Origin: an uncultured Roseovarius sp.
GTDB lineage: Bacteria > Pseudomonadota > Alphaproteobacteria > Rhodobacterales > Rhodobacteraceae
Reading direction: 5' to 3'
Length of the DNA stretch: 64,000 nt
Assembly (NCBI GenBank): GCA_951812895.1
Contig: OX638333.1
Span: forward strand, 1,106,366-1,170,365
The notes beneath the pieces were generated by a model. The model did no database searches and was not told where the DNA came from. It saw nothing but the letters and a program-made list of their open reading frames with translations. How positions within the stretch are numbered: position 1 is the first letter of the stretch; each line of letters opens with the position of its first letter. A program made the position numbers and the translations under genes. This document shows, one piece after another, positions 8,175 through 53,146 of this stretch.

Positions 8175-8384
8175 TGGCTCCTCCATTTCAATTTCCTGAT
8201 CCGGCCTCAGCGAATTACCCGCAGGCTAGTGGATTCAGGTGCAGCATTTCCCCAAGGGGCAGCCCAAAGGCGCATCGTGCCAAGGGCCAAAACCTGACGC
8301 TGTCAGTCTTGTCGGGTGATCCAACCAGATCGTCGGATTGCCACCCCTTTGATCAGGCAGCAATCCGCAGCATCCGTAGTTCGA

Positions 8385-8744
8385 TTAGCCGATGAACTCT
8401 TTGTAGGCTGCTTCGTCCATGTAGTCGTCCATCTGACTTGCATCGGAGGCTTTGATCTTGAAGATCCAGCCTCCGCCGATCGGATCTTCATTCACAGTGC
8501 TTGGTGCGTCTTCCAGCGCCCCGTTCACTTCAACGATCTCTCCGTCAATCGGTGCCAGAATGTCGCTCGCCGCCTTGACGCTTTCGATCACCACAATCTC
8601 TTCGTCCTTGGTCACCTCGGTGCCGGTATCAGGCAGGTCAACGAATACGATATCGCCAAGCTGTTCGGCGGCATGTTCAGTGATGCCAACAACAACAACA
8701 TCCCCTTCGACGCGCAGCCATTCATGTTCTTCGGTGAATTTCAT
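8385..8744 (-). CDS. gcvH: Glycine cleavage system H protein
   Basis: A 119-residue lipoyl carrier protein, standard length. The lipoylated lysine is Lys57 in the motif [10 protein letters not shown]-terminus [13 protein letters not shown] and the loop [12 protein letters not shown] are diagnostic. The ATG at 8744 follows an AGGGAGAAAG ribosome site. It sits 19 bases downstream of gcvT and upstream of gcvP in the same transcript, shuttling the aminomethyl group between P and T proteins. Confidence 0.97.
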
Positions 8745-8763
8745 GATCTTTCTCCCTTGGTGA

Positions 8764-9888: not shown

Positions 9889-9974
9889 CCGTTCTCTCCC
9901 ACTTTGTGGGCCGGGAAAAATCTTGCGATTAACCGGCACCGTCCCAACGTATGTCTATCATACGTCCGCGATGC

Positions 9975-10130
9975 CCCCTCTGTCCTTTCGCCTGAGATCG
10001 CTATCCCTTCGGCGTACCGGAAAAAATCCGGTCTCTCTCCAGAGTCCTATTTATCAGATCGGTCCTTGTGGCCTGAGAGTTTCCGGGGCGGTTGCTCCTT
10101 CGGCACCGGCTAAGCCGGTTCTCCCGATCC
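9975..10130 (-). promoter_or_regulatory. Tandem glycine riboswitch
   Basis: Read on the minus strand, two glycine aptamers lie head to tail in the gcvT leader. The first (about 10130-10061) has GGGAGA, the core GCCGAAGGAGCAA, then ACTCTCAGGC and AAGGACC. The second (about 10047-9975) has GGAGAGA, the core GCCGAAGGGAUAG, AUCUCAGGCGAAAGGAC and a G-rich close. This is the classic two-aptamer arrangement in which glycine turns on the cleavage operon. The gap from the second aptamer to the gcvT ATG is about 85 bases, where the expression platform must lie; I could not resolve its fold. Exact ends are approximate. Confidence 0.92.
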
Positions 10131-10166
10131 AATAATTGTGTGCTTTAGTATACAATCCGAGTCGCA

Positions 10167-10619
10167 TCAAGGCTTTTTGGCACAAGTTTCTGTGTGAAGA
10201 ATTTCCAGAAGATTAAAATTGTCGCAAATCAGGTCTTTCAGGGTCAGTCCATCAAGGCTTTGGTAAAAAGCTTCAACAGCCGAAGCAAGCGCCAGCTGCA
10301 GCCGGCACGCACCAATCAGTGGGCAACTGTTATCGACATCGGCAAAGCATTCCCCTGCGGGTGATCGCTTCTCAACTTGCCGAAAAACTGTTCCGACCTG
10401 AATATCACGCGCCTCTTGCGCCAGGCGAATGCCGCCATGCCGACCACGTTGGGTGTAAAGATAGCCCAGCTGAGCCAGATTATTCACGACCTGCGCCAGA
10501 TGGCTTTCAGAGACATTGCAGCATTCTGCAATCTCCGTTTTGGTGGAAAGCTGGCCTTCATGTGCACCGCAATACATCAAAATGCGCATGGCGATATTTG
10601 TGCGTTTGGTGATCCGCAT
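10167..10619 (-). CDS. Rrf2-family regulator, NsrR-like
   Basis: A 150-residue winged-helix Rrf2 protein. The N-terminus MRITKRTNIAMRILMYC and the HTH with SESHLAQVVNNLAQLGYL are typical of NsrR, the nitric-oxide-sensing repressor. Three cysteines expected for an Fe-S cluster are present (Cys91, Cys99, Cys105, in ECFADVDNSCPLIGAC). The first spacing (8 residues) is longer than the 5 I recall for E. coli NsrR, so cluster type is open. It lies just upstream of the gcv leader on the same strand and divergent from the 10712 gene. No NO-detoxification gene is adjacent, so its targets are elsewhere or unknown. Confidence 0.82.
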   Translation of the reverse strand: MRITKRTNIAMRILMYCGAHEGQLSTKTEIAECCNVSESHLAQVVNNLAQLGYLYTQRGRHGGIRLAQEARDIQVGTVFRQVEKRSPAGECFADVDNSCPLIGACRLQLALASAVEAFYQSLDGLTLKDLICDNFNLLEILHTETCAKKP

Positions 10620-10711
10620 GGTAATCTTTGCCCGGTCTTGAACTTTGCCAATCCTGCCGCCAAAAAGATCGGCGTAATATGACCCAGATCAACAAAGTGC
10701 AAAAACAACAG

Positions 10712-37677: not shown

Positions 37678-37708
37678 TTGACCTTCCAGTTACTGGAAGC
37701 ATTATGTG
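37678..37708 (+). promoter_or_regulatory. CueR-type promoter/operator of copA-cueR
   Basis: A -35 box TTGACC (37678-37683) and -10 TATGTG (37703-37708) are 19 bases apart, the overlong spacing used by MerR-family activators. The spacer carries a perfect 7-3-7 dyad CTTCCAG-TTA-CTGGAAG (37683-37699), close to the CueR consensus ACCTTCC...GGAAGGT. The predicted transcript starts about 25 bases before the copA ATG. Confidence 0.88.
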
Positions 37709-37738
37709 CTGCTGGACTTCTCCAATTTGGCGCACCCG

Positions 37739-40198
37739 ATGTCTGAGACACAGCTTCAACGTATAGAAATAGGTGGCATGACCTGTGCAGGATGTGCTGG
37801 CCGGGTCGAGCGAACGCTTAAGAACCTTCCCGGGTTACAGGATGTCGCGGTCAATTTCGCATCCCACACAGCACAACTACGCGCAGACAATGCCGGGCTG
37901 AAAGAAATAGAAGATGCGTTACACACTATTGGCTATATGGCACGCACCAAGGAGATCAGACTAGCCTTGGCTGGGTTGAGCTGCGCCTCTTGTGTGGGAC
38001 GTGTCAACAAGGCTTTGGAAGAAATACCCGGCGTGTTGGACGCGAATGTTAATTTTGCCAACAGCACTGCAACCATTCGTTATTTTCCTGAAATTGCGGA
38101 TCAGGCCATTCTGATAAGTGCCATCAAAAGTGCAGGGTATCAGGCCCAGGTGATAGAAGACGCCGCACGAGAAATGCCCAATCGCCATGAAGAAATCGCC
38201 GAAACCCGACGATGGACGATTGTTGCAATGATTTTGGCGTTACCTGTGTTTGTGATGGAAATGGGTGGACATCTGTCCACTGACTTCCGCGAATTCATCC
38301 ATCATACAATCGGGCAAGAGACATCCTGGTCCATCCAATTTTTGCTGACAACATTGATCCTTGTCTGGCCAGGCAGGAAGTTTTTTACAATCGGTGTCCC
38401 TACTTTGTTCAGGGCCGTGCCTGATATGAACAGCCTCGTGGCTCTCGGCACGCTCGCCGCTTGGGGGTATTCAAGCGTTTCACTTTTTGTCCCATCCATT
38501 CTACCCTTGGGTGCCAGAGCCGTCTATTTCGAAGCTGCCGCTGTGATCGTCGCCCTGATCCTGCTGGGTCGTTGGCTTGAAGCGCGCGCAAGAGGGCAGA
38601 CCGGGGATGCGATCGAAAAACTGGTTGAGCTGGCCCCCAACACGGCCCGAATTGAACGTGACGGCGTTCCAGTCGAAGTTTCTACGGCAGAGATTATAGT
38701 TTCTGACATTGTGATCGCGCGACCGGGCGAACGTTTGGCGGTGGATGGAACCGTTGTTTCAGGTGCCTCATTTGTGGACGAAAGCATGATCACAGGCGAG
38801 CCGCTACCGGTGTCTAAGTCGGAAGGGGATCCCGTTACCGCCGGAACAATCAACGCTGATGGTATGCTGCGATTCCGTGCCGAAAAGGTTGGCCGTGACA
38901 CGGTGCTGGCCCAGATTATCCGCATGGTCGAGGCGGCCCAAGGTGCAAAACTGCCCATTCAGGCGGTTGCAGATAAGGTGGTGCGCATCTTTGTGCCCGT
39001 TGTAATTGCAATTGCGGTGTTCGCTGTCATCGGATGGCTGACCTTCGGCCCTGAGCCTGCTCTAGGGCTGGCATTGGTGGCCGGGGTATCGGTGCTGATT
39101 GTGGCATGCCCTTGTGCAATGGGACTTGCAACGCCTGCATCCATCATGGTCGGCACAGGACGCGCGGCAGAACTGGGTGTTCTTTTTCGCAAGGGAGAGG
39201 CCCTGCAAACCCTGAGCGATGTACAGATGGTAGCATTTGATAAAACCGGCACGTTAACGCAAGGCCAGCCAACGCTGACGGAAATCAAGACAACGGGTGA
39301 GGTCCAACGAAAAAATCTTCTCAGGCTTGTCGCCGCGGCAGAATCAGGCTCTGAACATCCGATTGCACGCGCGATAGAGGCCGCTGCCGCTAAAGAAGCC
39401 ATCGAACTGCCAAAACCAGAGTCGTTTCGCGCTATCAGCGGCTTTGGCTTGTCTGCTGAGGTAGACGCTCATTCAATTCTTATCGGCGCCAAACGTCTTA
39501 TGGAGCGCGAAGGAATTGAAACAGATACTTATTCGGTAACAGCGCTTGAGCTGGAAGGCCAAGGGAACACGGTCATCTACGCAGCGGTTGATGGTAAGCT
39601 TGCTGGCATGCTGGCCGTTTCAGACCCTCTCAAACCGACAAGTCGTTCTGCGATAGAGGATTTGAATGTCAATGGGGTCAAGGTGGCCATGATCACCGGA
39701 GATGGCAAGGCGACGGCGCACCACATTGCTGACGAGCTTGGGATAACAACAGTTTATGCCGAGACCGCACCAGACGGAAAAGCAGAAATTGTTCGCACAC
39801 TTCGCGAACGCTTCGGATCTGTTGCTTTTGTCGGGGACGGCATCAATGACGCCCCTGCAATGGCAGAGGCGGACATCGGAATTGCTGTTGGCACCGGGAC
39901 CGATGTTGCGATTGAAACTGCTGATGTTGTTCTGACTTCCGGTGATCTGACCGGCGTTCTGACCGCGCATCACGTTTCTAAGCGAACGATGGCGAATATT
40001 CGTCAAAACCTTTTCTGGGCCTTTGGATATAATGCGGCGCTGATCCCCGTTGCCGCAGGCGTATTGTACCCGATCACAGGCATGTTGCTGTCGCCTATGC
40101 TGGCCGCCGGGGCAATGGCGCTTAGTTCTGTGTTTGTGGTAAGCAATGCATTGCGTTTACGAAGTGTGAACCAAACCAGTGAAAGAACTGCATTATGA
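37739..40198 (+). CDS. copA: Cu(I)-translocating P1B-type ATPase
   Basis: An 819-residue copper exporter of the inner membrane. Two N-terminal metal-binding domains (GMTCAGC with Cys16/Cys19; GLSCASC with Cys82/Cys85) precede eight membrane helices. The transmembrane copper site is CPC at 457-459 ([11 protein letters not shown]); the phosphorylated Asp is Asp501 in DKTGTLT; TGEP, the SEHPIA His-Pro motif of P1B ATPases and GDGINDAPA are all present. Start at ATG 37739. It is transcribed with cueR behind the CueR promoter, a self-contained copper-efflux unit. Confidence 0.97.
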
Positions 40199-40581: not shown

Positions 40582-40593
40582 GTACCCACCTAC
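40578..40593. terminator. Hairpin spanning convergent stops
   Basis: GTAGGT-ACCC-ACCTAC, six perfect pairs. It contains the cueR stop codon and the stop of the convergent FAD oxidase, so the two operons meet on it. Short and without long T-runs. Confidence 0.4.
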
Positions 40594-41924
40594 ACCTCTG
40601 GCCCCGCACGAAATTCACCCCAACGCATGACAGCATTGGCGCCCAGAAAGGTAATCGGCGCAGGCGGAAGACGGGCCGGTTGGTCCTGAGCCAGCACACT
40701 ATCCAACAATTCAGAGCTTTGCCCAGATGCCATTTCTGCCATTAGCTTTCCGTGCAATGTGCCCTTGGTCGCACCCAGTCCATTCTGACAACAGGCCGAA
40801 TATAGTCCGTCATCCACTTCTCCCAGAGCCGGGACACTATTTCTGCTCAGGCACAGCATCCCACCCCAGCTGTATTCCATTTCGACATTCGACAGCATCG
40901 GGAAGCGCGCCTTGAAGGCGCGATCATGGGTGCGCGCCATCTGATCAACGCGCCTGTTCGAGACTTTCATGCTTGGATTACATGTAACCCTGTTGCGCAT
41001 GATGATCCGGTCCCCGCCAGTGCCCGAAATCCGCCGCACGGTGGAACCGATGGGATCAGATGGCGTTACGCCCCATTTGGCCTCGCCGCCCAAACGTTTC
41101 ACCTCATTCTCACTCAGTGCCCGTGTCATGGAGCCATAGAGGAAGATGTGCAAAAGACGGCCTTCAAAATGGCCAAAGCTATTTGCATGACCATTTACGG
41201 CGAGGATAACTTTGGGTGCCGTCACCTGCCCCTTGGCTGTACGTGCCACCCAGTCGCATCCCCGAGACAGCTCTACCACGGCAGAGTTTTCATGGATGCG
41301 CACACCCTTCGCGCGAAGCCCATTGGCGAGACCCCGGACATACATGGCCGGCTGGATAACGGCAGTGCCTGGCGTGTGCAGCCCACTCTGGTAGTATTCA
41401 CTGCCGGTTAGCGCTTTCATTTGCATCGCGTCCAGATGCTCGAACGCCTCTCCCAGCTTGGTCAGGTGAGCGGCATAATCCTGATTATGCTTATGCGCCT
41501 TTGCGCTGGCGGCACCGTTGGTTTTGCCCGAACGAGAAAAGCATTCGTTTGGCAATCCGAACTCACGTACCAACGCCTCAGCGTAATCAATCGCCTCACG
41601 GTTTTGCCTCAGATGCGCCAGATCTTTTTCCAAAGTGCTGCCGTAGTCATCCGAAGACAGGTCATGCGGCAGATCAATCATAAATCCTGAATTGCGGCCG
41701 GCGGGCCCTTCAGCGATGCGGGCAGCATCAAGAACCATTATATTGTCACTGGGATGCAATTCCTGTAGGCGCCGCGCCGCAGTTAGACCTGCAAAACCAC
41801 CGCCGATGATTAGCCAGTCAGCAGTGGGATTGCCTTCGAGCGGCTCTGCAGCATGCTGATAAGCAGGTAAGATTTCGTTCCATCCGGTGCGGCCGGGATG
41901 GCAGGGCATCCGTTTTACTTTCAT
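40590..41924 (-). CDS. DAO-family FAD amine/amino-acid oxidoreductase
   Basis: A 444-residue flavoprotein of the DAO fold (D-amino acid oxidase/gamma-glutamylputrescine oxidase/sarcosine oxidase family). FAD loop IIGGGFAGLTAARRL begins near residue 39; GPAGRNSGFMID is the flavin-proximal motif typical of PuuB-like members, and YSWGGMLCLSRNSVPALG is the C-terminal FAD contact. It would oxidise a C-N bond, here probably a secondary amine or D-imino acid made earlier in the operon. Last gene of the eleven-gene unit; overlaps the SDR upstream by 4 bases. Confidence 0.85.
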   Translation of the reverse strand: MKVKRMPCHPGRTGWNEILPAYQHAAEPLEGNPTADWLIIGGGFAGLTAARRLQELHPSDNIMVLDAARIAEGPAGRNSGFMIDLPHDLSSDDYGSTLEKDLAHLRQNREAIDYAEALVREFGLPNECFSRSGKTNGAASAKAHKHNQDYAAHLTKLGEAFEHLDAMQMKALTGSEYYQSGLHTPGTAVIQPAMYVRGLANGLRAKGVRIHENSAVVELSRGCDWVARTAKGQVTAPKVILAVNGHANSFGHFEGRLLHIFLYGSMTRALSENEVKRLGGEAKWGVTPSDPIGSTVRRISGTGGDRIIMRNRVTCNPSMKVSNRRVDQMARTHDRAFKARFPMLSNVEMEYSWGGMLCLSRNSVPALGEVDDGLYSACCQNGLGATKGTLHGKLMAEMASGQSSELLDSVLAQDQPARLPPAPITFLGANAVMRWGEFRAGPEV

Positions 41925-42655
41925 GGCAGGCTCAGTTGCGCAGTGCGACCACCGTCGATGGTGTAAATTTGGCCCGTCACGAAACTTGCGTCATCCGATG
42001 CCAGCCAACAGATCAACCGTGCCACTTCCGCAGGGTCACCTGTGCGGCGCAGCGGATGAATGCCGCCAATCTCGGCGCGAAATGCCGTTGGATCCGGCAT
42101 CGAGTCAATGAAATCCACATTCAGCGGCGTATCTATCCAACCCGGTGCTACCGCGTTACACCGCACACCATCCGGCCCGTGATCTACAGCCACCGCGCGG
42201 GTCAAGCCGTGCAGTCCAGCCTTTGAGGCGCAATAGGCCGGATGTCTTGGGTTTGACCCGAGCCCTTCAATAGATCCTACATTCACAATTGCTGCGTTCC
42301 CGGACGCCCGTAACATCGGCATCGCATGGCGGGTCAAGAGAAACGGCGCCGTCAGATTGACCTGCATCTGCAAATGCCAGTCTGCAATATCGCCCTCTTC
42401 AACTGTACCCTCACGCATGACCCCGGCATTGTTGATCAGGATATCCAATCGGCCTGCAGCGGCCTGCACAGCGGATACTACTTCTCTTGGTGCTTCTGGA
42501 TCGCTGAAATCAGCCACGATTGCCTCATGCACTGCCGGGCCTCGCTGTGCAGTGAACACGCGCGCGCCCTGTTCTGCAAGCTGCCTTGCCGTGGCCTCAC
42601 CCATCCCGCTGGAGGCGCCGGTGACAAGTGCGACTTTGCCCTCAAATCTGCTCAT
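41921..42655 (-). CDS. SDR oxidoreductase (betaine operon, first copy)
   Basis: A 244-residue classical SDR: TGASSGMGEA cofactor loop, INNAGV, NVGSIEG with the active Ser, YCASK, and APGWIDTPLN after it. The residue set after beta-2 (TAQRG) lacks an Asp, so NADP(H) is possible. Overlaps both neighbours by 4 bases. In the operon it probably oxidises a hydroxyl made by the P450 or present on the substrate (inference). Confidence 0.85.
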   Translation of the reverse strand: MSRFEGKVALVTGASSGMGEATARQLAEQGARVFTAQRGPAVHEAIVADFSDPEAPREVVSAVQAAAGRLDILINNAGVMREGTVEEGDIADWHLQMQVNLTAPFLLTRHAMPMLRASGNAAIVNVGSIEGLGSNPRHPAYCASKAGLHGLTRAVAVDHGPDGVRCNAVAPGWIDTPLNVDFIDSMPDPTAFRAEIGGIHPLRRTGDPAEVARLICWLASDDASFVTGQIYTIDGGRTAQLSLP

Positions 42656-43383
42656 GTGACCGGCTTCCCTCCATTCACCTCAACAAGGGCACCACACATG
42701 TATCTTGCCGCGTCAGATGCAAGAAACAGGATCACGTCGGCGATCTCGTCAGGTTCTGCAATATGACCGATCGGAACAGATGCATTCAGCTTTGCCACCG
42801 CCTCATCCGGATCAAAACCGCGAATGGCAAACCCGGTGCGCAGCATCGGTGTGTTCACCTCATTCGGACAAACTGCATTCACCCGGATCCCCTGATGCGC
42901 GTGATCCCGGCCCAGGCATTGTGTCAGCGATGCAATCGCTGCTTTAGACATCACATAAAGCGGGTGGTTCGATCCCGGGCGCAGCCCCCAACAGGATGAC
43001 GTGTTGACGATTGCCCCACCGCCATTTTCCGCCATCAACGGGATTGCCGCCCGGCACAGGCGAAACGGCGCCTCGACATTGACGCCCATGGTCAACGCAT
43101 AGTCTTCATCCGAGGTGGCGGTGATATCCCCGCGCGTGATGACACCCGCATTGTTGCAAAGAATATCCAGCCCGCCCATTTCCGCGACAACTTGGCCTGG
43201 CAATGCATCGCAGAACCCGGTGTCCAATAGGTCACCGTCAAAATGTGCTTGGGCCGTAATTGCGGAAGTGTCCCGATCCGTCACTGCGACCTGCGCGCCT
43301 TCGGCTTGCAACATCCTGACCAGCGTCTGGCCAATCCCGCCAGCAGCCCCCGTTACCAGCGCTTTCTTTCCAGTAAATCTCAA
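42652..43383 (-). CDS. SDR oxidoreductase (betaine operon, second copy)
   Basis: A 243-residue classical SDR: TGAAGGIGQT, AVTDRD with Asp after beta-2 (NAD-preferring), CNNAGV, NTSSCWG and the active Tyr/Lys as YVMSK (YxxxK). It begins with TTG overlapping the P450 stop (TTGA). It is only moderately like its neighbour SDR, so the two are not a fresh tandem duplication and probably act on different intermediates. Confidence 0.84.
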   Translation of the reverse strand: MRFTGKKALVTGAAGGIGQTLVRMLQAEGAQVAVTDRDTSAITAQAHFDGDLLDTGFCDALPGQVVAEMGGLDILCNNAGVITRGDITATSDEDYALTMGVNVEAPFRLCRAAIPLMAENGGGAIVNTSSCWGLRPGSNHPLYVMSKAAIASLTQCLGRDHAHQGIRVNAVCPNEVNTPMLRTGFAIRGFDPDEAVAKLNASVPIGHIAEPDEIADVILFLASDAARYMCGALVEVNGGKPVT

Positions 43384-44570
43384 TGGAGCACCTCATATCT
43401 GACCGGCAATGTCATTGCACCGGTATTCCCGCTATCAGGGCGCCATACTGGCACCCCATCATATTCAAATCGCACAAAGTTTTTGCGTAAAGCCCCAATG
43501 GCAGCCGCCATATCTGTGCGGGCAACGTAGTGACCGATGCAGTGATGCGCACCGCCACCAAAACCAAAATGTTTGCGTCGCCGAACGGTAATGTCGAACC
43601 GGCTGTCGTTACAAATTTCGGGATCACATGCAGAGGCATGTATCAGAAGGTGCAAAACTGTCCCTTTGGCAATCGTCAGCCCATTGACCTCGACATCTTC
43701 GACCGCTTCACGCGTTGCCCAAGTGGTTGTTGGCCGGGCGCGAATGAACTCTTCGATTGCGGCTGGGATAAGGGACGCATCAGCGCGTAACTCTTGCCAT
43801 TGGTCCGGGCTTTCGATGAAAAGAGACAGCCCCAACCCAAGCAAAGCACGGGTCGTATCCACCCCACCAAAAATGGAAATGACGATAATGTTGAGCAGCT
43901 CGTCATGTGAACAATTTCCATTTCGATCAAAATCTGCCACCAGCCGGGCTACATAGCTTTGTGTATCTGCCCCGCATCTCACCTTGACCACCAGCTTATC
44001 GGCAAGCTGGTGCAGGCGCTCACAGGCGGCATTAAACCGACCTTCATAGGATTTCGCATCGATCCCCATGGCCAGACCCAGTTCGGATGCATCATGAGCG
44101 ACCATTGGCCATTCTTCACGATCCAAGCCAAGCAACGTGGTGATTGCCTGCCCCGCAAATGGTTCACAAAACGCCTGTAGAAAGTCACAGCTTTCTGATC
44201 GTCTCATATCTGAACACAATGCTTCGGCAATATCCTTAAATTCCGGTATCAGGCTTTGAACATAGGTTTCACTCAGCGCTGGCACGGCGAGCGCCCGCAA
44301 TCTGCGATGCGTATCTCCTTCCTGCCCGATCACAGACTGCTTCCAGAATTCTGCAAAGCTTCCGTTTATGCCCACTGTGTCGGGCCAGTTGTGACTGCCC
44401 TGACGAAAGCGGCGGTCGCGCAGTATCTTACCAACCTCGCGATAGCGTAGAACGGCAAGACCAAAGGGTGTCTGCGCGCACCACCCATGGTCCCGCGCCG
44501 CTAAAACTTCGGGGCCGCGCGTGGAAAAGGCCGGATCGCTTAGATCAAGAAATGGAAGAGCCTCAGACAT
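43380..44570 (-). CDS. Cytochrome P450
   Basis: A 396-residue soluble bacterial P450. The heme ligand is Cys344 in FGFGGGAHHCIG; the ExxR is Glu274-Arg277 in EEFIR; the I-helix oxygen-activation motif reads GGVDTTR (235-241) where AG(x)DTT is usual. RHF-type K-helix and PTTTWATREAV are normal. ATG at 44570 lies 8 bases inside the upstream gene; a GTG two codons earlier is possible. No ferredoxin or reductase is in the operon. In context it may hydroxylate the substrate or oxidatively remove an N-methyl group; this is inference. Confidence 0.9.
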   Translation of the reverse strand: MSEALPFLDLSDPAFSTRGPEVLAARDHGWCAQTPFGLAVLRYREVGKILRDRRFRQGSHNWPDTVGINGSFAEFWKQSVIGQEGDTHRRLRALAVPALSETYVQSLIPEFKDIAEALCSDMRRSESCDFLQAFCEPFAGQAITTLLGLDREEWPMVAHDASELGLAMGIDAKSYEGRFNAACERLHQLADKLVVKVRCGADTQSYVARLVADFDRNGNCSHDELLNIIVISIFGGVDTTRALLGLGLSLFIESPDQWQELRADASLIPAAIEEFIRARPTTTWATREAVEDVEVNGLTIAKGTVLHLLIHASACDPEICNDSRFDITVRRRKHFGFGGGAHHCIGHYVARTDMAAAIGALRKNFVRFEYDGVPVWRPDSGNTGAMTLPVRYEVLH

Positions 44571-46599
44571 GCGCACAAATCCTCAGCGCGTCATGCATCG
44601 CCGCCGCCATGTTGCGGGATGAAACAGCATCACCAATTCTGATCAGGTCGTACCCGTTTGCCGGCGGCTTATCGGGCAAGACCGGGCCACCGGACACCCA
44701 TGCATCTACATCAATCTGCCCATTGTTCCGGCTACCCTCACGCAGGTCTTCGTACAGGGCGTCATTGGGAACAGTTCCAAATTCTGTGACAACAAGATCG
44801 AATTCCTGAAGCTTCTCTGCTCCACTCAGAACATTACGCAGTTTGGCAGAAATCCGGTTTCCAGATCGCGACAGGCCCACACATTCCGTGTCCGGCACGT
44901 AACCAATTCCCTGTGAATAGAGGTCACGCAAGGCCACCGCGCCGGTTGTCGGGCCAAGTTCATGATGCGGCGCTCGATCAGGTGTGGCCAGCGTAACCTG
45001 CGCCCCCGCCTGCAGCACCATATCGGCCAAAACCGCCCCCGGCTGATCACCCAGCTCATCCAGAACGAGCACATGGCCCGAAGCTCGAACGCTCCCCTCC
45101 AGTACATCCCAGGATGGCACTGCCAGATCTGCGCCAGTACACCTGCATTCTTCCGGCAAACCACCCGTGGCCAGCACGATGAAATCCGATTCATCTTTCA
45201 GAATATCCTGTGCTTCTACAAAACTTCCCAAACGCAGTTCCACACCCAGATGCAGCAGCTCAGCCTCTAACCAATCGCGCACGCCAATGATGTTACGCCG
45301 TGTTCGACCTTTGGCTGCCAGGCGCAACTGTCCTCCCAGCACGGGTTGTGCCTCGTGAAGGATCACATGATGCCCGCGCTCGGCCAGAACACGCGCGGCT
45401 TCCATCCCAGCGGGGCCACCGCCAACAACAGTCACTTTGCGGCGGGCGACCGAGGTCGCAATCACATGTGGCAGTGTTGCTTCTCGTCCCGTGGCAGCGT
45501 TCTGACCACAGACCGCTGCTTTCCCCTGATTGACGCGATCAACACAGTAACCAAGGCCGACACACGGACGAATGCGGTCCTCTTCGCCGTGCATCAATTT
45601 GTTAACCAGATGCGGATCGGCCATATGCGCCCGTGTCATCCCCACAAGATCAACTGCCCCACTACTGATCGCATGCCGCGCAGTGGCCAGATCAGCGATG
45701 CCGCCCGCGTGCAGGATCGGCAGGTCAACGGCTGCGCGAATGCGCGCGGCCACGAGTAAATGCGGGGCCGACGGGGTGCCCATCGGCGCCACCCACCCGG
45801 CAAGCCCGAGGTCATCATAGGGCGCACCTGCCATGATATTGAGGTATGTCAGGTGGCCTGTGGCCTCCAACTTGCGGGCAATCTCGACACAGTCCTCGGC
45901 TAACAGGCCATCCTCCAGCTCTTCATCACCTGTAAGCCGCATGCCGACGATAAAATCAGGGCCAGTCTCACGCCGTACCGCGTCGAGCACTTGGTAGGTA
46001 ATACGCAGCCGGTTCTCCAGCGACCCACCATAATCGTCACCGCGCTTGTTGGTATGTGGCGACATGAACTGTCCCAACAGATGCGAATGCGCCAGCAGTT
46101 CTATGCCGTCAAACCCTGCCTGATACACTCGCGCAGCTGCCGCCGCGAAATCGGCAATCACCCGGTCGATATCCTCCTGCTCCATCACCTTGGGAATTGC
46201 CCGATGGGCGCGCTCGCGCACCTGCGACGGCCCCATCACCGGCAACCAATGGGCATCGTCCCAGACTGTGCGCCGCCCCAGATGCGTCAGCTGAATAATA
46301 GCACCTGACCCGTGCTGGCGAATGCCAGCCGCATATTGCTCCAGCCAGGGAATAATGCTGTCATCACCCGCATATGCCTGTCCAAAGACTGACGGGCTGT
46401 CAGGGGACACGTTGGTGGACCCGCCGATAATTGTCAGGCCAATCCCGCCCTTGGCCTTTTCCTCATGATAGAGGCGATAGCGTTCCCTAGGATGGCCCTG
46501 CTCCACAAAAGATGGCGCATGCGCGGTGCTGACGATCCGGTTTCTCAGGGTCAGGTGGCCCAGCTGAAACGGTTCGAGCAGTGGATCGCGCGCACCCAT
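44563..46599 (-). CDS. TMADH/N-methylproline demethylase-like flavoprotein
   Basis: A 678-residue fusion of an Old Yellow Enzyme barrel (about 1-370; LLEPFQLGHLTLRNRIVSTAH, HLGRRTVWDD, GRITYQ-type FMN site, VDLVGMTRAHMADPH) with an FAD/NAD(P)-binding half (VTVVGGGPAGMEAARVL from about 390). This is the trimethylamine/dimethylamine dehydrogenase, 2,4-dienoyl-CoA reductase group; N-terminal wording resembles N-methylproline (stachydrine) demethylases. The linker cluster region has Cys346, Cys352 and Cys364, with Leu349 where a fourth cysteine of the [4Fe-4S] site is expected. Likely removes an N-methyl as formaldehyde. Overlaps P450, 3 bases after the epimerase-like gene. Confidence 0.85.
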   Translation of the reverse strand: MGARDPLLEPFQLGHLTLRNRIVSTAHAPSFVEQGHPRERYRLYHEEKAKGGIGLTIIGGSTNVSPDSPSVFGQAYAGDDSIIPWLEQYAAGIRQHGSGAIIQLTHLGRRTVWDDAHWLPVMGPSQVRERAHRAIPKVMEQEDIDRVIADFAAAAARVYQAGFDGIELLAHSHLLGQFMSPHTNKRGDDYGGSLENRLRITYQVLDAVRRETGPDFIVGMRLTGDEELEDGLLAEDCVEIARKLEATGHLTYLNIMAGAPYDDLGLAGWVAPMGTPSAPHLLVAARIRAAVDLPILHAGGIADLATARHAISSGAVDLVGMTRAHMADPHLVNKLMHGEEDRIRPCVGLGYCVDRVNQGKAAVCGQNAATGREATLPHVIATSVARRKVTVVGGGPAGMEAARVLAERGHHVILHEAQPVLGGQLRLAAKGRTRRNIIGVRDWLEAELLHLGVELRLGSFVEAQDILKDESDFIVLATGGLPEECRCTGADLAVPSWDVLEGSVRASGHVLVLDELGDQPGAVLADMVLQAGAQVTLATPDRAPHHELGPTTGAVALRDLYSQGIGYVPDTECVGLSRSGNRISAKLRNVLSGAEKLQEFDLVVTEFGTVPNDALYEDLREGSRNNGQIDVDAWVSGGPVLPDKPPANGYDLIRIGDAVSSRNMAAAMHDALRICAHV

Positions 46600-46602
46600 G
46601 CC

Positions 46603-47709
46603 CTACCCCCCGAAAGAGGCGACCGGCGCGCCGAACTGCGCCACATCAGGCGTGATACCTAGACCCGGACCATCGGGCAGATTAACATGACCGGCCTCAA
46701 CGGTGACCGGCGCCTCTGGCACATAGGTTTCGGCCACGTAAGGTGTGGACAACCATACTGCCTCCAGCTGTGAAGGCGCCACCGTCGCACCCATATGTAT
46801 ACAGGCCGCGGCAACAATATCACCGCCCCAACTATCATCACAGGTGTGCGGCAGGCCGCGCGCCGCGGCGATATCGCGAAATGCACTAAACGGGCGCAGT
46901 CCGCCGAGGCGCGACAATTTCATACCAAACCCGTCGACCAGCCCAACGCCCACAACCCGCAGGACAGTGTTGAGGTCCACCATGCTTTCATCGAGGTAAA
47001 TCGGGTGGTTGATCTGATGCCGGATCGCCGCGACCTCTTCGATCGTGTTGCAGGGTTGTTCAAGGACAAATGGCACATCCGGGCATTCCCGGCTAAGCCG
47101 CAGAGCATCACGCGCGGACAGCCCGCGATTGGCGTCAACGGCAAGACGGGCAAGACCGCCCACCGCCTCGTGCACCTTGCGCACCGTGGCAATGTCTTCG
47201 GCCACGTCGCGCCCGCCGACTTTGATCTGAATACGGGGAAAGCCCTGTGCCACCTTATCTGCTGCCAGTTGGGCGATGTCGTCCGGGTCGCCGATACCGG
47301 TTGCAAAGTATGACGGCAGCCGGTTGGCCACCGCACCGCCCAGCAGCGTGGCCACAGGCACACCCATTGCCTTGCCCAACAAATCATGCGCCGCAATGTC
47401 GATGGCAGACCGCGCATAGCTTTGCCCATTGACCTGTCCATCTATGGCCTGCGCGATGCTATTGATGGTAATCGATGTCCCAATCAGCGCCTCGCCAACC
47501 TGCATCAGGGTCGCACGTACACCTGCCGCACTCACCGGCGCATAGCGTGCTCCAAGAGGGCAAACCTCGCCCCAGCCTTCAACGCCGGTATCCGACACCA
47601 ACCGCACCACGGTGGTATCAAGCGACCAAACCTGTTGACCGGCAAAGGTATAGGGGCCGTAGCGAACTGGCAGATCCTTTTGGTAGATATGAAATTCGGC
47701 AAGGCGCAT
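46603..47709 (-). CDS. hpbD: Enolase-superfamily epimerase, 4-hydroxyproline betaine epimerase-like
   Basis: A 368-residue mandelate racemase/muconate lactonising-type enzyme. Metal ligands are Asp192, Glu217 and Asp240 (VDANRG, LEQPC, YLDES), and the two acid/base lysines of a 1,1-proton-transfer racemase are Lys163 (IQIKVGG) and Lys264 ([11 protein letters not shown]). From memory it is strikingly like HpbD of Pelagibaca bermudensis, 4R-hydroxyproline betaine 2-epimerase, including the N-terminus ([14 protein letters not shown] / [10 protein letters not shown]) and the active-site surround [17 protein letters not shown]. The symbol is by similarity only. ATG at 47709 matches that N-terminus; a TTG at 47718 is possible. 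Five bases after the MttB gene. Confidence 0.85.
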
Positions 47710-47714
47710 CTTGG

Positions 47715-49265
47715 TCAATGTTCCTGATTTAGAGCATCCGCTGCAGGAATTTCCCGCTCGCGTCTGGCAATGTAGTCGAGCAATGCTTCATTCACGCCAG
47801 CATCCAGCTTGGGCTCTTCATAGGCCGCCAACAGATCGCGGGTGTATTTCAAAGCGCGTTCATTGGCCTCTACCGCGCCTTCTGCGGCCCATTGTTCGAT
47901 AGAGTTGTTGTCAAACAGCTCCGGCATGAAAAACGCCCGTTGGAAGTTTTCCAACGTATGAGGGTGGCCCAGGTAATGCCCTCCGGGACCAATGTCCGAG
48001 ACGGCTGCGATGGCTTCGTCAAAGTCGTCCCAGCGGACGCCCTCTGCCATACGGTAGGCCATCGCACATTGCTCTGCGTCGACAACGAACTTTGCCATGC
48101 TGCAATGCATCCCAGCCTCGTTCCAGCCAGCCGAATGCCACATGTAATTCGTCCCCGCCATCTGTAGGGCCATAAGAGTGGTTGCGCTTTCATACCCGGC
48201 CTGAGCATCAAAGGTTTTGGCACCGCCCAGTGTGTTGGAAGACCGCCACGGCACCTCATAAAACCGCGCCATCTGGCCAATCATCAGGTTCATCAGGCTG
48301 ATCTCGGGCGTGCCAGCCATTGGTGCGCCGGATTTCATGCTGACCGTCGACAGGTAATGCCCGTAAATCGCAGGTGCGCCTTTGCGGATAACTTGAGTAT
48401 AGGCCAAGGCGCTAAGCGCCTCTGCGTTCAATTGTGCAACCGTGGGTGCGACCGAGGCTGGCGTGTTGGCACCGCCAAGCACAAAAGGAGAGCACAAAAC
48501 CGGTTGATTGCGCTTGCTGAACGCCCGCATCGCGCCCAGCATCGTTTCGTACCATACAAGTGGGCTGTTACCGTTGCAGTTGCCGGTGCAGACAGGATGC
48601 GTTTCCAGGTATTCCTCGCCGAACAGGATGGCACACATTTCCATCACATCCTCGGCGTTCTTGGGGCTGGTGGTCATGCCCATGAAGGTTTTGTCGGAAT
48701 GCTTCATCGACGAATAGGTGATCCGCAAATGCCGTTGGCTGATCGGGTGGTCGTAGGGTTCCACGATGTGATGCGCCGAAGAATGCATTGCAGGCAGCAT
48801 ATGCGCCAGCTTGTGGAAATTGCTTAGGTCTTCCATCATCGGGTTGCGCCGCACATCATCGAGATCGCGCAGATAGGGCGCGCCGGTCATGGGAACAAAA
48901 ATCCCGTGATCGCGACCGAATGGCAGGTTATTGGCGGGGTTTCGCGCGTGGTAGGTAAAAGTCTCAGGGATGGTTGCGATCAGCTCGCGCACCAGATCGC
49001 GATCCAGAAAAACCGTCTCGTCCACCACTTTTGCACCCGCTCTGCGCCAGTCTTCAAGCGCGATGTCATCGCGGAAATGAACACCGACATTCTCCAGGAT
49101 GTGCATGCTTGCCGCATCGATGCGCGCGATCTGTTCGTCGTCCATCGGCTCAGTCAACGGAAGGTTCCGTTTTAGCGCGGGCAACATAGTGAAATCGCGT
49201 GCCTGCCGCGCCGATTTTCGCGCGCCGCGGCCCCGGCGGGTGGTTCCGACTGCTTCAACGGTCAT
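47715..49265 (-). CDS. MttB-family corrinoid methyltransferase homologue, non-pyrrolysine
   Basis: A 516-residue member of the trimethylamine methyltransferase superfamily (MttB/MtgB/MtpB). Typical passages are [48 protein letters not shown] and [22 protein letters not shown]. The frame is unbroken, with no internal amber codon, so it is the non-pyrrolysine kind that demethylates quaternary amines such as glycine betaine or proline betaine. Its usual partner, a small corrinoid protein, and a corrinoid:THF methyltransferase are not in this window. Overlaps the ProC-like gene by 4 bases. Confidence 0.85.
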
Positions 49266-50023
49266 TGGCTGTTCTCCAATTTCGCCTCGATCCTGTCGAG
49301 GGCGGCTCTGAGGTGGGTGTGTATACCAGCGGATCGCAGGTCTGTTTTCATCTGAAGGCTCAATGAACCGGGTGTCGCCAAGGCGTTCAACTCTCGATCA
49401 ATCTGGCCTGCATTGTTTTTAGGCATCGCATTCAGGAAGCCTGACAAAAGCTGTGTTGTGTAGAATTCCGCAGTCAGCGCGTCACCGGTTTTTCTGGCCA
49501 ACCAACCAGCGCTGGTGCTCATCATATCCAACATCCCGGAAATGAACGTCGCGATTGCAGAGTGATAATTGAATGCCGCTTCATCAGGTAGAGTGATCAC
49601 CGGATTTTCCGGCTCAAATAGTGCGTCCAGCAAATCACCATCTGGGTATGCAGGAAGCGGGCAGCCTCCGACTTCCAGAAATCCCACAGGCATTGTCCGG
49701 ATGATATCAATCGCAGGCGCACAAAGCGATTTCAGTTGCGCCAGCGAAACGCTCGCCATTGCGGAGATCACCTGTTGCCCGGCACGAAAAACCAAAGGCT
49801 CCAGCACCTTTTCTGCGACGCCGGGTCGGACACACAGAAAAACGATATCGCTTTCATCTAAAACCTGTTGGTTCGGGGCGACCCTTATGCCTACGCCTTT
49901 GGCCAAAGCGGCAGCCGTTTCTGCATTTCGTTCTGAGACAGTGACATCATGCCCCTTTGCGGCCAGAAAGCGCACCATGGGAGCAGCTATATGTCCTGTT
50001 CCGATGAAGCCAATACGGCTCAT
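49262..50023 (-). CDS. Pyrroline-5-carboxylate-reductase-like NAD(P)-binding protein
   Basis: A 253-residue protein of the ProC fold. The N-terminal Rossmann loop is IGFIGTGHIAAPMV (GTGHIA about 8-13), then FLCVRPGVAEKVLEPL and a helical dimerisation half. It is a little shorter than housekeeping ProC (about 270) and diverged in the C-terminal proline-binding helix, so a special pyrroline or imino-acid reductase/dehydrogenase is more likely than proline biosynthesis. Located between the aldehyde dehydrogenase and MttB-family gene, overlapping each by 4 bases; fits reduction or oxidation of a ring imine in this route. Confidence 0.8.
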   Translation of the reverse strand: MSRIGFIGTGHIAAPMVRFLAAKGHDVTVSERNAETAAALAKGVGIRVAPNQQVLDESDIVFLCVRPGVAEKVLEPLVFRAGQQVISAMASVSLAQLKSLCAPAIDIIRTMPVGFLEVGGCPLPAYPDGDLLDALFEPENPVITLPDEAAFNYHSAIATFISGMLDMMSTSAGWLARKTGDALTAEFYTTQLLSGFLNAMPKNNAGQIDRELNALATPGSLSLQMKTDLRSAGIHTHLRAALDRIEAKLENSQ

Positions 50024-51510
50024 CCCACATTGTCCCCTTCTTTCGGGTCAGTCAGGTCGATCCAGATGGTTTTCATTTCGGTGAACTGATCATGGGCGTG
50101 AACAGAATTATCGCGCCCGCCAAACCCGGATTGTTTGTAACCGCCAAAGGGTGTGCTGATGTCCCCCTCGCCATAACAATTCACCGTAACCGTACCGGCG
50201 CGAATATCCCGGGCTGTGCGGATCGCGTGGCGAATGTTGCTGGTAAAGACCGATGCGGCTAGGCCATAGTCTGTGTCATTGGCAAGCTCGATCGCCTCAT
50301 CCGCACTTCCCACTTCGATGACCGACAAGACCGGCCCGAAAATCTCGTCCCGGGCGCGGGGATCATCTCTTTTCACCTCATAAACCGTGGGAGGCACAAA
50401 ATTGCCATCCGCCGTGCCACCGACAACTGCCTTACCTGTAAAATAGCTGCTGACTTTCTGGCAATGCTGCACATCAATCAGAGCGCCCAAATGGTTCGCC
50501 GGATCTAGCGGATCGCCGGTTTTCCAGTCACGGATGCGTGCAAGGATACGCTCCATCAGCGGCTCTTTTACCGCCTTATGTACAATCAAACGCGATGCGG
50601 CCGAACAGTTTTCACCCATGTTCCAGAAGGCTGCATTCACAACATGTTCTGCTACATTGTCCAGATTTTCGGCATCTTCCAAAACAAGGGCCGGGTTTTT
50701 ACCACCGCATTCCAAAGTGACCTTTTTCATATTACTGTCAGCGGCATAACGCAGAAACCGTTTGCCGGTTTCGGTCGAGCCGGTGAAGCTGACCATATCG
50801 ACGCCCATGTGCAGACCTAACGGCTCACCAACAGATGGACCATCCCCCGGCAGCACCTGCAGGACGCCGCGCGGGACCCCAGCCATATGTGCTACCTCTG
50901 CCAACCGCAGCGCGGTCATCGACGTCTGTTCAGCCGGTTTCACGATCACTGAATTGCCTGCCGCCAGTGCAGGCCCGATTTTCCACGCCATCATCAAAAG
51001 CGGAAAATTCCAAGGCAACACCGCCGCAACCACACCGACGGGTTCACGCACGATCATTGAAATAGCATCATCACCTGAGGGCGCGGTTTGATCATAGATC
51101 TTATCAATCAGCTCGCCATGCCATTTGATTGTGTGAATTGTCTCGGGAATATCAATAAGTTCGCAATCACGGATCGGCTTCCCGCTATCCAGGCTTTCCA
51201 TCACCGCGAACTCTCGCTTTCTGCGGGTGATCAGCTTGCACAGGCGGATCAGTACATCCTTGCGCTCTGATGGATGCAGGCGTGACCACTCTCCACGATC
51301 AAAGGCTTCGCGGGCTTTCCGGACAGCAAAATCCACGTCTTCGCCATTGGCCGTACTGATCTTTGCAATGACATCACCGGTCGCCGGGTTGATTGTCTCC
51401 ATCATCGGGCCGGAACCCTTGCGGAATTTTCCGTCCACAAACGGCGCGGCGGGAAAGTCCAGTTCAGCTGCGATAGCAGAGTATTCGCCGCGTGTCAGAA
51501 GGTCTGTCAT
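50020..51510 (-). CDS. Aldehyde dehydrogenase
   Basis: A 496-residue NAD(P)-dependent ALDH. Nucleotide region VLPWNFPLLM...VKPAEQT, GSTETGKRF, active-site Glu in VTLECGGKNP, nucleophile Cys in MGENCSAASR and the C-terminal EIFGPVLSV / PFGGYKQSGFGG are intact. It looks like the PuuC/betaine-aldehyde group, not the longer 2,5-dioxovalerate type, although a ketoglutarate-semialdehyde role would fit beside the DapA-family gene. Start ATG overlaps the latter by 4 bases. Confidence 0.9.
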   Translation of the reverse strand: MTDLLTRGEYSAIAAELDFPAAPFVDGKFRKGSGPMMETINPATGDVIAKISTANGEDVDFAVRKAREAFDRGEWSRLHPSERKDVLIRLCKLITRRKREFAVMESLDSGKPIRDCELIDIPETIHTIKWHGELIDKIYDQTAPSGDDAISMIVREPVGVVAAVLPWNFPLLMMAWKIGPALAAGNSVIVKPAEQTSMTALRLAEVAHMAGVPRGVLQVLPGDGPSVGEPLGLHMGVDMVSFTGSTETGKRFLRYAADSNMKKVTLECGGKNPALVLEDAENLDNVAEHVVNAAFWNMGENCSAASRLIVHKAVKEPLMERILARIRDWKTGDPLDPANHLGALIDVQHCQKVSSYFTGKAVVGGTADGNFVPPTVYEVKRDDPRARDEIFGPVLSVIEVGSADEAIELANDTDYGLAASVFTSNIRHAIRTARDIRAGTVTVNCYGEGDISTPFGGYKQSGFGGRDNSVHAHDQFTEMKTIWIDLTDPKEGDNVG

Positions 51511-52415
51511 TTTGCCTCTCCGGTGATCTGTGCGATGGACGTGTCCAGTGTACGGATCACTTCTTCGAGCGCCCGTTTGTCATCTTTGTTAAGCGGTTGC
51601 AGGGGTTTGCGTGGCGGGCCGCCGGGGATGCCACGCATGGTCAGGCCATGTTTGATGCACTGAATGAACTTGCCACCCTGCTCCAGCACCCGCATCAGCG
51701 GCATAAGAGCCGACATAATGGCCCGCCCTTTGGTGAAATCACCTTCCAGCACACAGGCCCGATACAAAGCGATGTGCGCCTCAGGTGCAAAGTTCGATCC
51801 GGCACACACCCAGCCCCGGGCACCCCAGGCGAAGAATTCAAGCGCCTGGTCATCCATGCCGCATAAAAGGCCAAGATGCGGATAGTCCCGCCCGATCATG
51901 TGCAACCGGTTGATGTCGCCACTGCTTTCCTTGATCCCGCAAAAATTGGACGAGCGGCCAAGCCGATCCAGCGTTTCTTCGTCCATATTCACGCCCATCC
52001 GACCGGGGTAATTGTAGAGCATCACCGGCATATCGACCGCACGGTCAATGGCCAAAGCATGCAGTGCAATTTCGCGCCCCGTAGGCACGGAATAAGGCGG
52101 CGTTGCCACGAGGATCGCATCGGCCCCAACGTCTTTGGCGGCCTTTGCATAGGCGATGCTTTCTTCGGTCCGCAAGGCGCCTGTCCCCACGACCATTGGC
52201 ACCCTGCCTCCGATCAGGCTTTTGATATTGCTTGCTAATTCCACCCGCTCTTCAAAACTTTGCGCGTAATACTCGCCAGTTGTCCCGGCAGAGATGATCC
52301 CGTGCACACCGGCACCGATCAACAGCTCCACCGTCTCGGCCAGGGCCGCTTCGTTCACCGTGAAATCGTCATGATAGGGGGTGACGATCGGGGTCCATAT
52401 CCCTTCAAATCGCAT
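51507..52415 (-). CDS. DapA/N-acetylneuraminate lyase-family aldolase/deaminase
   Basis: A 302-residue TIM-barrel class I aldolase of the dihydrodipicolinate synthase family. The Schiff-base Lys162 is in GIKESSGD, Tyr134 in MLYNYPGR and the GTTGE phosphate-like loop at 44-48. Lysine synthesis is unlikely because the gene is inside a catabolic operon. In hydroxyproline degradation a DapA-family enzyme (HypD) deaminates pyrroline-4-hydroxy-2-carboxylate, followed by an aldehyde dehydrogenase, exactly the pair found here. That function is inferred. Its start lies 11 bases inside the GntR gene. Confidence 0.87.
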   Translation of the reverse strand: MRFEGIWTPIVTPYHDDFTVNEAALAETVELLIGAGVHGIISAGTTGEYYAQSFEERVELASNIKSLIGGRVPMVVGTGALRTEESIAYAKAAKDVGADAILVATPPYSVPTGREIALHALAIDRAVDMPVMLYNYPGRMGVNMDEETLDRLGRSSNFCGIKESSGDINRLHMIGRDYPHLGLLCGMDDQALEFFAWGARGWVCAGSNFAPEAHIALYRACVLEGDFTKGRAIMSALMPLMRVLEQGGKFIQCIKHGLTMRGIPGGPPRKPLQPLNKDDKRALEEVIRTLDTSIAQITGEAK

Positions 52416-53109
52416 GTTTACGGTCCTTTATAGCGGTCATATCCAATGGCAGTGGGTCCGGCGTTACGAACTGTTCGAGCCGGTCCAGTGACAGGTTCCA
52501 GTGATCAAGCGTCAGCTCTACCGCGAGCTCAGGCTCCTGATTTTCGATGGCAGTAATCATGGCGTCGTGTTGTTCAACAGCCTTGTACACCCGGGTCTCT
52601 TCACCCTTGGATGCAGGGCGATAGAAAGTCTGGCTGAGACGGGTGTGGTCGATCAGCATCCGGTTGAGGCTGGTAAGGAGGTAAGGGTTGTGGGCCATGA
52701 GGCCGATTTTCCAATGAAATCTGTGGTTTAGAAGAGCCGAACGGCCCGCATCACCATCTTCTGTTGCCGTGCGGAATTCTTCCTGAATGGCCTTCAAAGG
52801 TGGGATTTGCTCGACGCGGCGGTGCTCTGCGGCAAGGCGGGCGATATTGGCGTAGATCATAGGCGCGGTCTGAAAGAACATCCGCATGACAGACAGGTCC
52901 ATAGACGCCACCTTGGCCCCGCGATTCTGTTCAAGGCGGAGATATCCATCGCCGCTAAGCCGTTGAAATATCTCACGCATTGGCGTTCTTGAAATGCCAT
53001 ACTGGGCGCAGAGTGCGGCCTCATCAAGATCACTGCCCGGCGCAATCTCTAACGTGAGAATGCGCATGCGCAGATCTTCCATGCATTGCGTTTTACGGTC
53101 AGGCGGCAC
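52405..53109 (-). CDS. GntR/FadR-family (FCD) regulator of the betaine-type operon
   Basis: A 234-residue regulator with an N-terminal winged HTH (MRILTLEIAPGSDLDEAALCAQYGISRTPMREIFQRL) and a C-terminal all-helical FCD ligand domain (HRFHWKIGLMAHNPYLL with likely metal-binding His). A GTG at 53109 is chosen because AAGGGA lies seven bases upstream; a TTG at 53133 sits inside the operator. First gene of the eleven-gene operon, overlapping the DapA-family gene. Probably an autorepressor induced by a pathway intermediate. Confidence 0.86.
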   Translation of the reverse strand: MPPDRKTQCMEDLRMRILTLEIAPGSDLDEAALCAQYGISRTPMREIFQRLSGDGYLRLEQNRGAKVASMDLSVMRMFFQTAPMIYANIARLAAEHRRVEQIPPLKAIQEEFRTATEDGDAGRSALLNHRFHWKIGLMAHNPYLLTSLNRMLIDHTRLSQTFYRPASKGEETRVYKAVEQHDAMITAIENQEPELAVELTLDHWNLSLDRLEQFVTPDPLPLDMTAIKDRKHAI

Positions 53110-53126: not shown

Positions 53127-53146
53127 TATACAATTTGTATACAAAT
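53127..53146. promoter_or_regulatory. Overlapping palindromes, GntR operator candidate
   Basis: TATACAA-T-TTGTATA (53127-53141) overlaps ATTTGTATACAAAT (53133-53146), each perfect. The core TTGTATACAA fits FCD-GntR operators. It lies just upstream of the regulator's ribosome-binding site. Confidence 0.65.

Follow-up and report, generated by a model that had tools for sequence, protein, structure and literature searches.

A mosaic Roseovarius operon, probably for breakdown of hydroxyproline betaine that starts its demethylation with a B12-dependent enzyme

The window analysed here is a stretch of 64,000 nucleotides from an uncultured Roseovarius sp. (contig OX638333.1), at positions 1106366–1170365 of a 4.54-Mb single-contig genome. 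On its minus strand, between 40590 and 53109, the list of open reading frames (ORFs) and a Pfam family search reveal eleven ORFs that form one operon. All of the genes proposed in an initial annotation are present on that strand and in the order given there, with the Pfam families GntR and FCD, DHDPS, Aldedh, F420_oxidored, MTTB, MR_MLE, Oxidored_FMN and Pyr_redox, p450, two short-chain dehydrogenases (SDRs) and DAO (Table 1). The four-base overlaps described at most junctions are likewise found, at 7 of 10. Two further overlaps are longer, 11 bp between GntR and DapA and 14 bp between the flavoprotein of the OYE type and the P450 (counted from the longest P450 start), and a 3-bp gap separates the MR_MLE epimerase from the OYE. 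On balance, the operon is probably for the catabolism of hydroxyproline betaine, a salt-protecting compound, with proline betaine probably a side substrate and a first demethylation that depends on vitamin B12.

A conserved operator was found upstream of the regulator gene. Among 64 upstream stretches, comprising the window and the loci with a GntR of >55% identity and enough sequence, TGTATACA occurs in 46 (shuffle mean 0.2) and the spaced form ATAC-N5-GTAT in 41 (shuffle mean 0.22). The conserved palindrome at 53135–53144 lies directly upstream of GTG 53109 and favours this codon, which was also the first choice, as the probable start of GntR. The regulator would repress the operon through TTGTATACAA.

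Table 1. Features of the operon, in order of transcription
Feature	Position	Strand	Evidence
Predicted GntR operator, palindrome TTGTATACAA	53135..53144	.	Conserved upstream motif
GntR/FCD-family regulator, likely autorepressor	52405..53109 (TTG 53133 = possible longer start)	-	Pfam GntR and FCD; palindrome just upstream
DapA-superfamily lyase (DapA), predicted imino-acid deaminase/dehydratase	51507..52415	-	Pfam DHDPS 215 bits; motif alignment
Aldehyde dehydrogenase (ALDH), predicted oxidation of 2-oxoglutarate semialdehyde (or an amino-aldehyde)	50020..51510	-	Pfam Aldedh 525 bits; Cys302
ProC-like imine reductase, accessory	49262..50023	-	NCBIfam PRK06476 159 bits (below cut-off 254)
MttB-superfamily protein, non-pyrrolysine, predicted (hydroxy)proline betaine:corrinoid methyltransferase	47715..49265	-	Pfam MTTB 702 bits; tree
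HpbD-like protein, predicted (hydroxy)proline betaine 2-epimerase	46603..47718	-	PDB 4e8g 502 bits; motifs
OYE/TMADH-type flavoprotein, predicted N-methyl(hydroxy)proline demethylase	44563..46599	-	46% to annotated HpbA; tree; CVGxxYC
Cytochrome P450, accessory	43380..44576	-	Pfam p450; heme Cys motif; I-helix GGVDTT
SDR2, short-chain dehydrogenase, Asp type (NAD-preferring by motif)	42652..43383	-	Beta-2 Asp
SDR1, short-chain dehydrogenase, NADP type by motif	41921..42655	-	Gln-Arg, no beta-2 Asp
DAO-family FAD oxidase/dehydrogenase, predicted conversion of a secondary (or N-methyl) amine to an imine	40590..41924	-	Pfam DAO 159 bits

The gene adjoining the operon in the window (37706–40198) encodes a heavy-metal P-type ATPase, copper-type by eye. 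Of 83 clustered loci, 15 have a protein of a similar-looking ~817-aa family near the cassette, and 11 have a MerR-like protein of ~128 aa there.

Conserved Core and Accessory Genes

To describe the gene order in relatives, 81 MttB loci were compared: the best 80 of 523 MttB matches from named genomes, together with one locus (L033) from a family search. The frequencies therefore describe near relatives only, and the closest named ones among these best 80 are Roseovarius, at no more than 94% identity. A locus was counted as complete if DAO and either GntR or DapA were on the contig, which left 70 after 11 of the 81 were dropped because one cassette end was missing. Presence was called at identities of 35% for ProC, 45% for GntR, DAO and the epimerase, 58% for the SDRs, 60% for P450, OYE, ALDH and DapA, and 75% for MttB, which as the query of the survey is in every locus by design. 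The loci are mutually related, and the Fisher p-values for co-occurrence overstate their independence.

GntR, DapA, ALDH, MttB and DAO occur together in 62 of the 70 complete loci, and this core gene order is seen again across many genera, more than expected by chance. DAO is present in all 70 by definition (and in 72 of the 81 related loci), DapA and ALDH in 69 each and GntR in 63. The other genes are less frequent: SDR1 in 30, SDR2 in 29, ProC in 12, P450 in 9, the epimerase in 8 and OYE in 1. The most frequent form of the cassette consists of the five core genes alone (29/70). Of the 30 complete cassettes with at least one SDR gene, 29 have the pair and one has SDR1 alone; the remaining 40 lack both. 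The P450 always accompanies the SDR pair (9 of 9 complete cassettes), as does the epimerase (8 of 8). OYE and P450 occur together in none of the 81 loci. Thus, a search for the same gene order elsewhere recovers the five-gene core, but no MttB locus among the 81, and none of the 20 HpbD loci described below, has the complete set of eleven. The operon is a mosaic of a five-gene core and a variable set made up of SDR2 and SDR1, P450, epimerase, ProC and OYE.

Predicted Enzymes of the Route

The top PDB match of the epimerase is 4e8g (502 bits), followed by 2pmq and 4h2h (412 bits), all of which we take to be HpbD entries, and the protein is 59% identical to a Paracoccus protein annotated as 4-hydroxyproline betaine 2-epimerase (HpbD). 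K166, K267 and W322 are retained and align with their counterparts in 2pmq; presumably the two lysines are catalytic and the tryptophan binds the betaine, as in HpbD. The nearest curated profile is that of cis-3-hydroxy-L-proline dehydratase, at 263 bits (cut-off 500), which is no argument against HpbD because the annotated HpbD itself scores 245 bits on this profile. The enzyme is predicted from its sequence to be an HpbD-like (hydroxy)proline betaine 2-epimerase.

A survey of 394 genomes of the family (HpbD matches at E <= 1e-90) located an HpbD-like protein in 20 of them, at 21 places. Those besides the window are the 20 HpbD loci counted here (L193–L211 and L033, from 19 genomes; L211 is just 47% identical), which were read as stretches of 10–20 kb with an identity threshold of 45%. 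MttB is present in 13, the SDR pair in 14, OYE beside MttB in 2 and P450 in 1, while the Rieske demethylase pair is found in a single locus, together with MttB. The epimerase adjoins MttB in plasmid loci of Cereibacter, Leisingera and Mesorhizobium. In five of the HpbD loci (L195, L197, L198, L201 and L202), a second enolase-superfamily protein (33–36%) recurs near the HpbD-like gene, as does a similar ORF of ~365 aa, which Pfam places among zinc-type alcohol dehydrogenases in L198 and which was judged by eye in the rest. The two lie between MttB and the SDR pair in 4 of the 5, and may form a module that handles a different hydroxyproline betaine.

The MttB gene encodes 516 aa, of which the match covers positions 2–500 of the 500 of the MTTB domain. 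It has no in-frame stop and consequently no pyrrolysine codon. In an unrooted tree, the window protein, 12 MttBs from core loci and 14 from HpbD loci fall on one side of a branch with 100/100 support, and the 12 paralogs sampled from this genome all fall across it. The sample took 12 of the 13 other MttB matches of the genome; the 14 HpbD-linked rows were picked for lying in HpbD loci, so that their HpbD neighbourhood is not an independent result of the tree. The 14 MttB-family matches of the genome include one at 1013970–1015394, and one match has an in-frame TAA.

The initial annotation noted that a transporter, a Rieske demethylase and a corrinoid protein were lacking. This holds for the operon, where Pfam identified no Rieske demethylase or reductase among the ORFs. 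Elsewhere, the genome encodes four OpuAC-family proteins and the partners that MttB would need. A single protein combines the B12-binding and B12-binding_2 domains and carries a DIHDIG motif; a DUF1638 gene adjoins its gene, and a homocysteine methyltransferase gene lies ~1.5 kb away on the other side. A second pterin-binding protein exists besides the FolP-like one, ~5 kb from another MttB; FolP was assigned between the two by score (277 versus 98 bits). The account of Ruegeria pomeroyi MtgBCDE describes one corrinoid protein that is required for both glycine betaine demethylation and methionine synthesis, suggests that several pfam06253 paralogs use a shared corrinoid protein for other compounds, and gives ‘up to seven’ MttB paralogs for marine bacteria with such a system (PMC12478193). 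As the corrinoid protein is encoded elsewhere in the genome, its absence from the operon is no obstacle. Given this partner set, and a closest match to the Paracoccus Rieske demethylase of just 35% identity, the first demethylation, probably B12-dependent, has MttB as its strongest candidate.

Two further candidates were set aside. An ORF of 318 aa lies upstream of the MtgD-like gene; it matches no Pfam family and is not taken as a MetF2 beside MtgD. Extra ORFs of 208–214 aa in related cassettes (L072, L107, L108 and L145), considered as dedicated corrinoid genes, resemble GNAT acetyltransferases by eye. A search of the genome with the Cereibacter ProX, run without a positive control, returned no match.

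The OYE shares 46% identity with a protein that carries the HpbA annotation. In a tree of 13 rows with long branches, both fall in a group of eight (99/100), within which the order of three branches is unsettled. The CVGxxYC motif was read in 6 of these 8 and in none of five more distant paralogs. Relatives of the OYE adjoin MttB in two of the HpbD loci (L198 and L201). The enzyme is thus a predicted N-methyl(hydroxy)proline demethylase, an assignment made from homology. A second HpbA-like OYE (45%) is encoded at genome position 1072618, ~30 kb from the window (L212, G000:C1:1064000-1083900, 7513–10625), divergent from an ornithine-cyclodeaminase-like gene (37%); this locus is possibly an N-methylproline module.

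DAO, DHDPS-family and ALDH enzymes make up the known trio for cis-4-hydroxy-D-proline (PMC4113996). The motifs expected of P450, ALDH and DapA are all found, and DapA retains Lys162 and Tyr134 as well as Arg139. The nearest PDB chains to ALDH are 7uyy and KauB. Context links the core to hydroxyproline and to betaines. In one HpbD locus (L207), a module of MttB, epimerase, SDR2 and SDR1 is divergent from homologs of HypD (71%) and HypO (80%), and likewise from a gene whose product is 59% identical to another protein annotated as 4-hydroxyproline epimerase. The Sinorhizobium meliloti HypD, HypO and HypH used for comparison throughout were labelled by gene layout beside an annotated 4-hydroxyproline epimerase. 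In Agrobacterium, GntR-DapA-ALDH-DAO precedes genes for a betaine ABC transporter and for a protein annotated as 4-hydroxyproline epimerase. The same four genes in Rhizobium (L152, 3–16644) are preceded by an HpbA-like OYE, which pairs with HpbA in the tree, DMSP-lyase-like genes, EtfAB and genes of glutathione-linked formaldehyde oxidation, and a betaine ABC transporter is also present. In Cereibacter (plasmid pB) and Leisingera, the core adjoins ProVWX betaine transporters.

The two SDRs differ at the end of beta-2, where SDR2 has Asp and SDR1 has Gln-Arg and no Asp, each in 37 of 37 aligned sequences. An Asp at this position marks the NAD type, and Gln-Arg without Asp the NADP type. Adjacent dehydrogenases with opposite cofactor signatures suggest inversion of a hydroxyl, in which the pair would oxidise it to the ketone and reduce this to the other configuration. 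The P450 may supply the hydroxyl by hydroxylating proline betaine; N-demethylation is its alternative role. P450 relatives were rejected as a guide to the substrate: among 23 loci from other genomes, the operon occurs only in L033, and when the other 22 were clustered, the neighbours in common were only weak ones, with an ABC ATPase in 9 loci, a protein of 790 aa in 5 and one of 458 aa in 4.

Proposed Pathway and Alternatives

From the observed gene content, homology, conserved context, partner genes and motifs, we infer the following reactions and substrates. The order put forward in the initial annotation (epimerisation, N-demethylation, imine formation, deamination and aldehyde oxidation) fits the homology and context and is kept, with the first demethylation now assigned to MttB. 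This enzyme would move one N-methyl group onto the MtgC-like corrinoid protein of the cell, which would hand it to the MtgD-like protein and tetrahydrofolate, or to methionine synthesis. The HpbA-like OYE would take off the second methyl group as formaldehyde. DAO would convert cis-4-hydroxy-D-proline to a cyclic imine, which DapA would deaminate to 2-oxoglutarate semialdehyde, and ALDH would oxidise this to 2-oxoglutarate. SDR2 and SDR1 would invert the ring hydroxyl of isomers that the core cannot use, and the P450 would probably hydroxylate proline betaine, allowing its entry into the same route. ProC would reduce a by-product imine to proline.

Several observations weigh against this assignment. 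DapA and ALDH are each only 25% identical to their S. meliloti counterparts HypD and HypH, which falls short of orthology to HypD, and no BLAST match of DAO to HypO was found at E 1e-3. In the alignment, DapA keeps Arg139, a DHDPS-type residue that is absent from HypD and that DHDPS presumably uses for carboxylate binding. For ALDH, PuuC is the top-scoring model (500 bits, cut-off 850), and the oxoglutarate-semialdehyde model is lower, at 321 bits. One genome (G178) has HypD/HypO as well as the core, which is therefore not simply a replacement; HypD/HypO had been considered to replace the core there until the core cassette was found elsewhere on the same contig. The link between MttB and the betaine genes also has exceptions. 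MttB is missing from the fetched stretch in 7 of the 20 HpbD loci, from the core clusters shown for Agrobacterium and Rhizobium, and from the annotated genes shown for the Shinella locus with an HpbD-like gene and for the hpb cluster of Paracoccus pantotrophus, where the Rieske pair is present. In L206 (5450–9342), the Rieske demethylase pair directly adjoins MttB, placing two solutions for the first step in one HpbD locus. Conversely, two loci (L132 and L133) carry MttB and no other core gene, and that of Roseovarius nubinhibens ISM (L079) has GntR-MttB-SDR2-SDR1 but not DapA, ALDH or DAO, although this strain grows on trans-4-hydroxyproline (PMC4113996). Finally, since so few complete cassettes carry the epimerase (8/70) or OYE (1/70), most relatives would need these steps elsewhere or act on another substrate.

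The last point is also consistent with a different alpha-amino-acid betaine, such as pipecolate, alanine or 3-hydroxyproline betaine, for which an HpbD-like enzyme was recruited. Under this alternative the distance of DapA, DAO and ALDH from the S. meliloti 4-hydroxyproline enzymes would be expected, and alanine betaine is present in marine holobionts (PMC11965087). We consider it unlikely, though the least so of the alternatives, as the HpbD, HpbA and HypD/HypO/4HypE contexts indicate (hydroxy)proline.

Slightly less likely still is a different route from the same substrate. DAO would then attack the side of the ring nitrogen away from the carboxylate, ALDH would yield (N-methyl-)4-hydroxyglutamate, and DapA would act as a 4-hydroxy-2-oxoglutarate aldolase that forms pyruvate and glyoxylate. 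The resemblance of DAO to the pipecolate oxidase AmaA (133 bits, cut-off 600) and of ALDH to PuuC, the retained Arg of DapA, which we assume to bind carboxylate as in DHDPS, and the automatically annotated GO terms of relatives (glyoxylate catabolism) all point this way. However, the operon has no aminotransferase or glutamate dehydrogenase to form the 2-oxo acid, and DAO, DHDPS and ALDH correspond to the known cis-4-hydroxy-D-proline set (PMC4113996).

The first demethylation might instead be carried out by the P450, with MttB acting on another methylated amine or at a later step. P450s are capable of N-dealkylation, and in R. albus (L073) an OYE demethylase sits between the epimerase and SDR2, the slot taken by the P450 in others. 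This is improbable in view of the distribution of the P450, which is missing from 61 of the 70 complete cassettes, is only ever found with the SDR pair and occurs in one of the 20 HpbD loci, compared with 13 for MttB.

The list of candidate substrates in the initial annotation also held homarine and trigonelline, and is here narrowed to (hydroxy)proline betaine; homarine catabolism is said to be widespread in marine Rhodobacterales (a 2026 paper cited in PMC13390433), but both compounds are highly improbable, being aromatic, lacking the sp3 alpha carbon that an HpbD-type epimerase should need and fitting badly with the HypD/HypO/4HypE and HpbA contexts.

If the assignment to hydroxyproline betaine with MttB is correct, one MttB group found in many marine genomes gains a specific and testable substrate. 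Turnover of a second osmolyte would then also be connected with vitamin B12 and with methionine synthesis, and removal of the first methyl in aerobes that have HpbD and no Rieske demethylase beside it would be explained. The SDR pair and P450 lead to sharp predictions on stereochemistry and on the entry of proline betaine. A broader proposal is more doubtful and offered tentatively: in aerobic marine Alphaproteobacteria, the MttB branch could feed the methyl groups of hydroxyproline betaine to the corrinoid protein of methionine synthesis, while the P450, by turning proline betaine into a hydroxyproline betaine, and the SDR pair, by correcting the configuration of the hydroxyl, could widen one ring-opening core to a family of proline-derived betaines. 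Titles and the beginnings of abstracts contained no link between MttB and hydroxyproline betaine in aerobes, and an earlier mention in Zhao 2013 or Kumar 2014 is possible.

Comparison with Known Systems

A pathway for hydroxyproline and proline betaine with HpbD, HpbB1C1 and HpbA was reportedly described by Zhao (2013) and Kumar (2014), both cited in PMC4113996. The operon shares with it an HpbD-type 2-epimerase, an HpbA-like OYE, DAO, a DHDPS-family lyase and ALDH, and betaine ABC transporters lie beside some of its relatives. In contrast, it has MttB in place of the Rieske demethylase pair, and an SDR pair and P450 in addition. Its ProC gives no BLAST match to that of the Paracoccus hpb cluster, and its DapA, ALDH and DAO come from subfamilies other than those of S. 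meliloti HypD, HypH and HypO. The route, initially thought to be undescribed, is a conserved variant of the known HpbD pathway, and in the operon P450, OYE, ProC, the SDRs and the epimerase are accessory. Its DapA, ALDH and DAO are not orthologs of the known hydroxyproline enzymes.

The S. meliloti hyp cluster (PMC6608401) likewise combines a GntR regulator, a DHDPS-family deaminase, ALDH and DAO. Its proteins are distant, with the window GntR at 30%, DapA and ALDH at 25% and DAO without a match, and unlike the operon no betaine genes were seen in the hyp stretch.

The R. pomeroyi MtgBCDE system (PMC12478193) also has an MttB-superfamily protein without a corrinoid gene of its own. Further likeness, by families alone, lies in the MtgC-like protein near DUF1638 and homocysteine methyltransferase genes and in the second pterin-binding protein. 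The MttB of the window differs in sharing its catabolic operon with a gene for a betaine epimerase, and in its predicted substrate, hydroxyproline betaine.

Another related system is a non-pyrrolysine MttB from an anaerobic acetogen, Eubacterium limosum. This protein, MtpB, is a proline betaine:corrinoid methyltransferase, compared here by its description only, and several such MttB members share one corrinoid protein (PMC8604678). Unlike MtpB, the MttB of the window is encoded within a full degradation operon.

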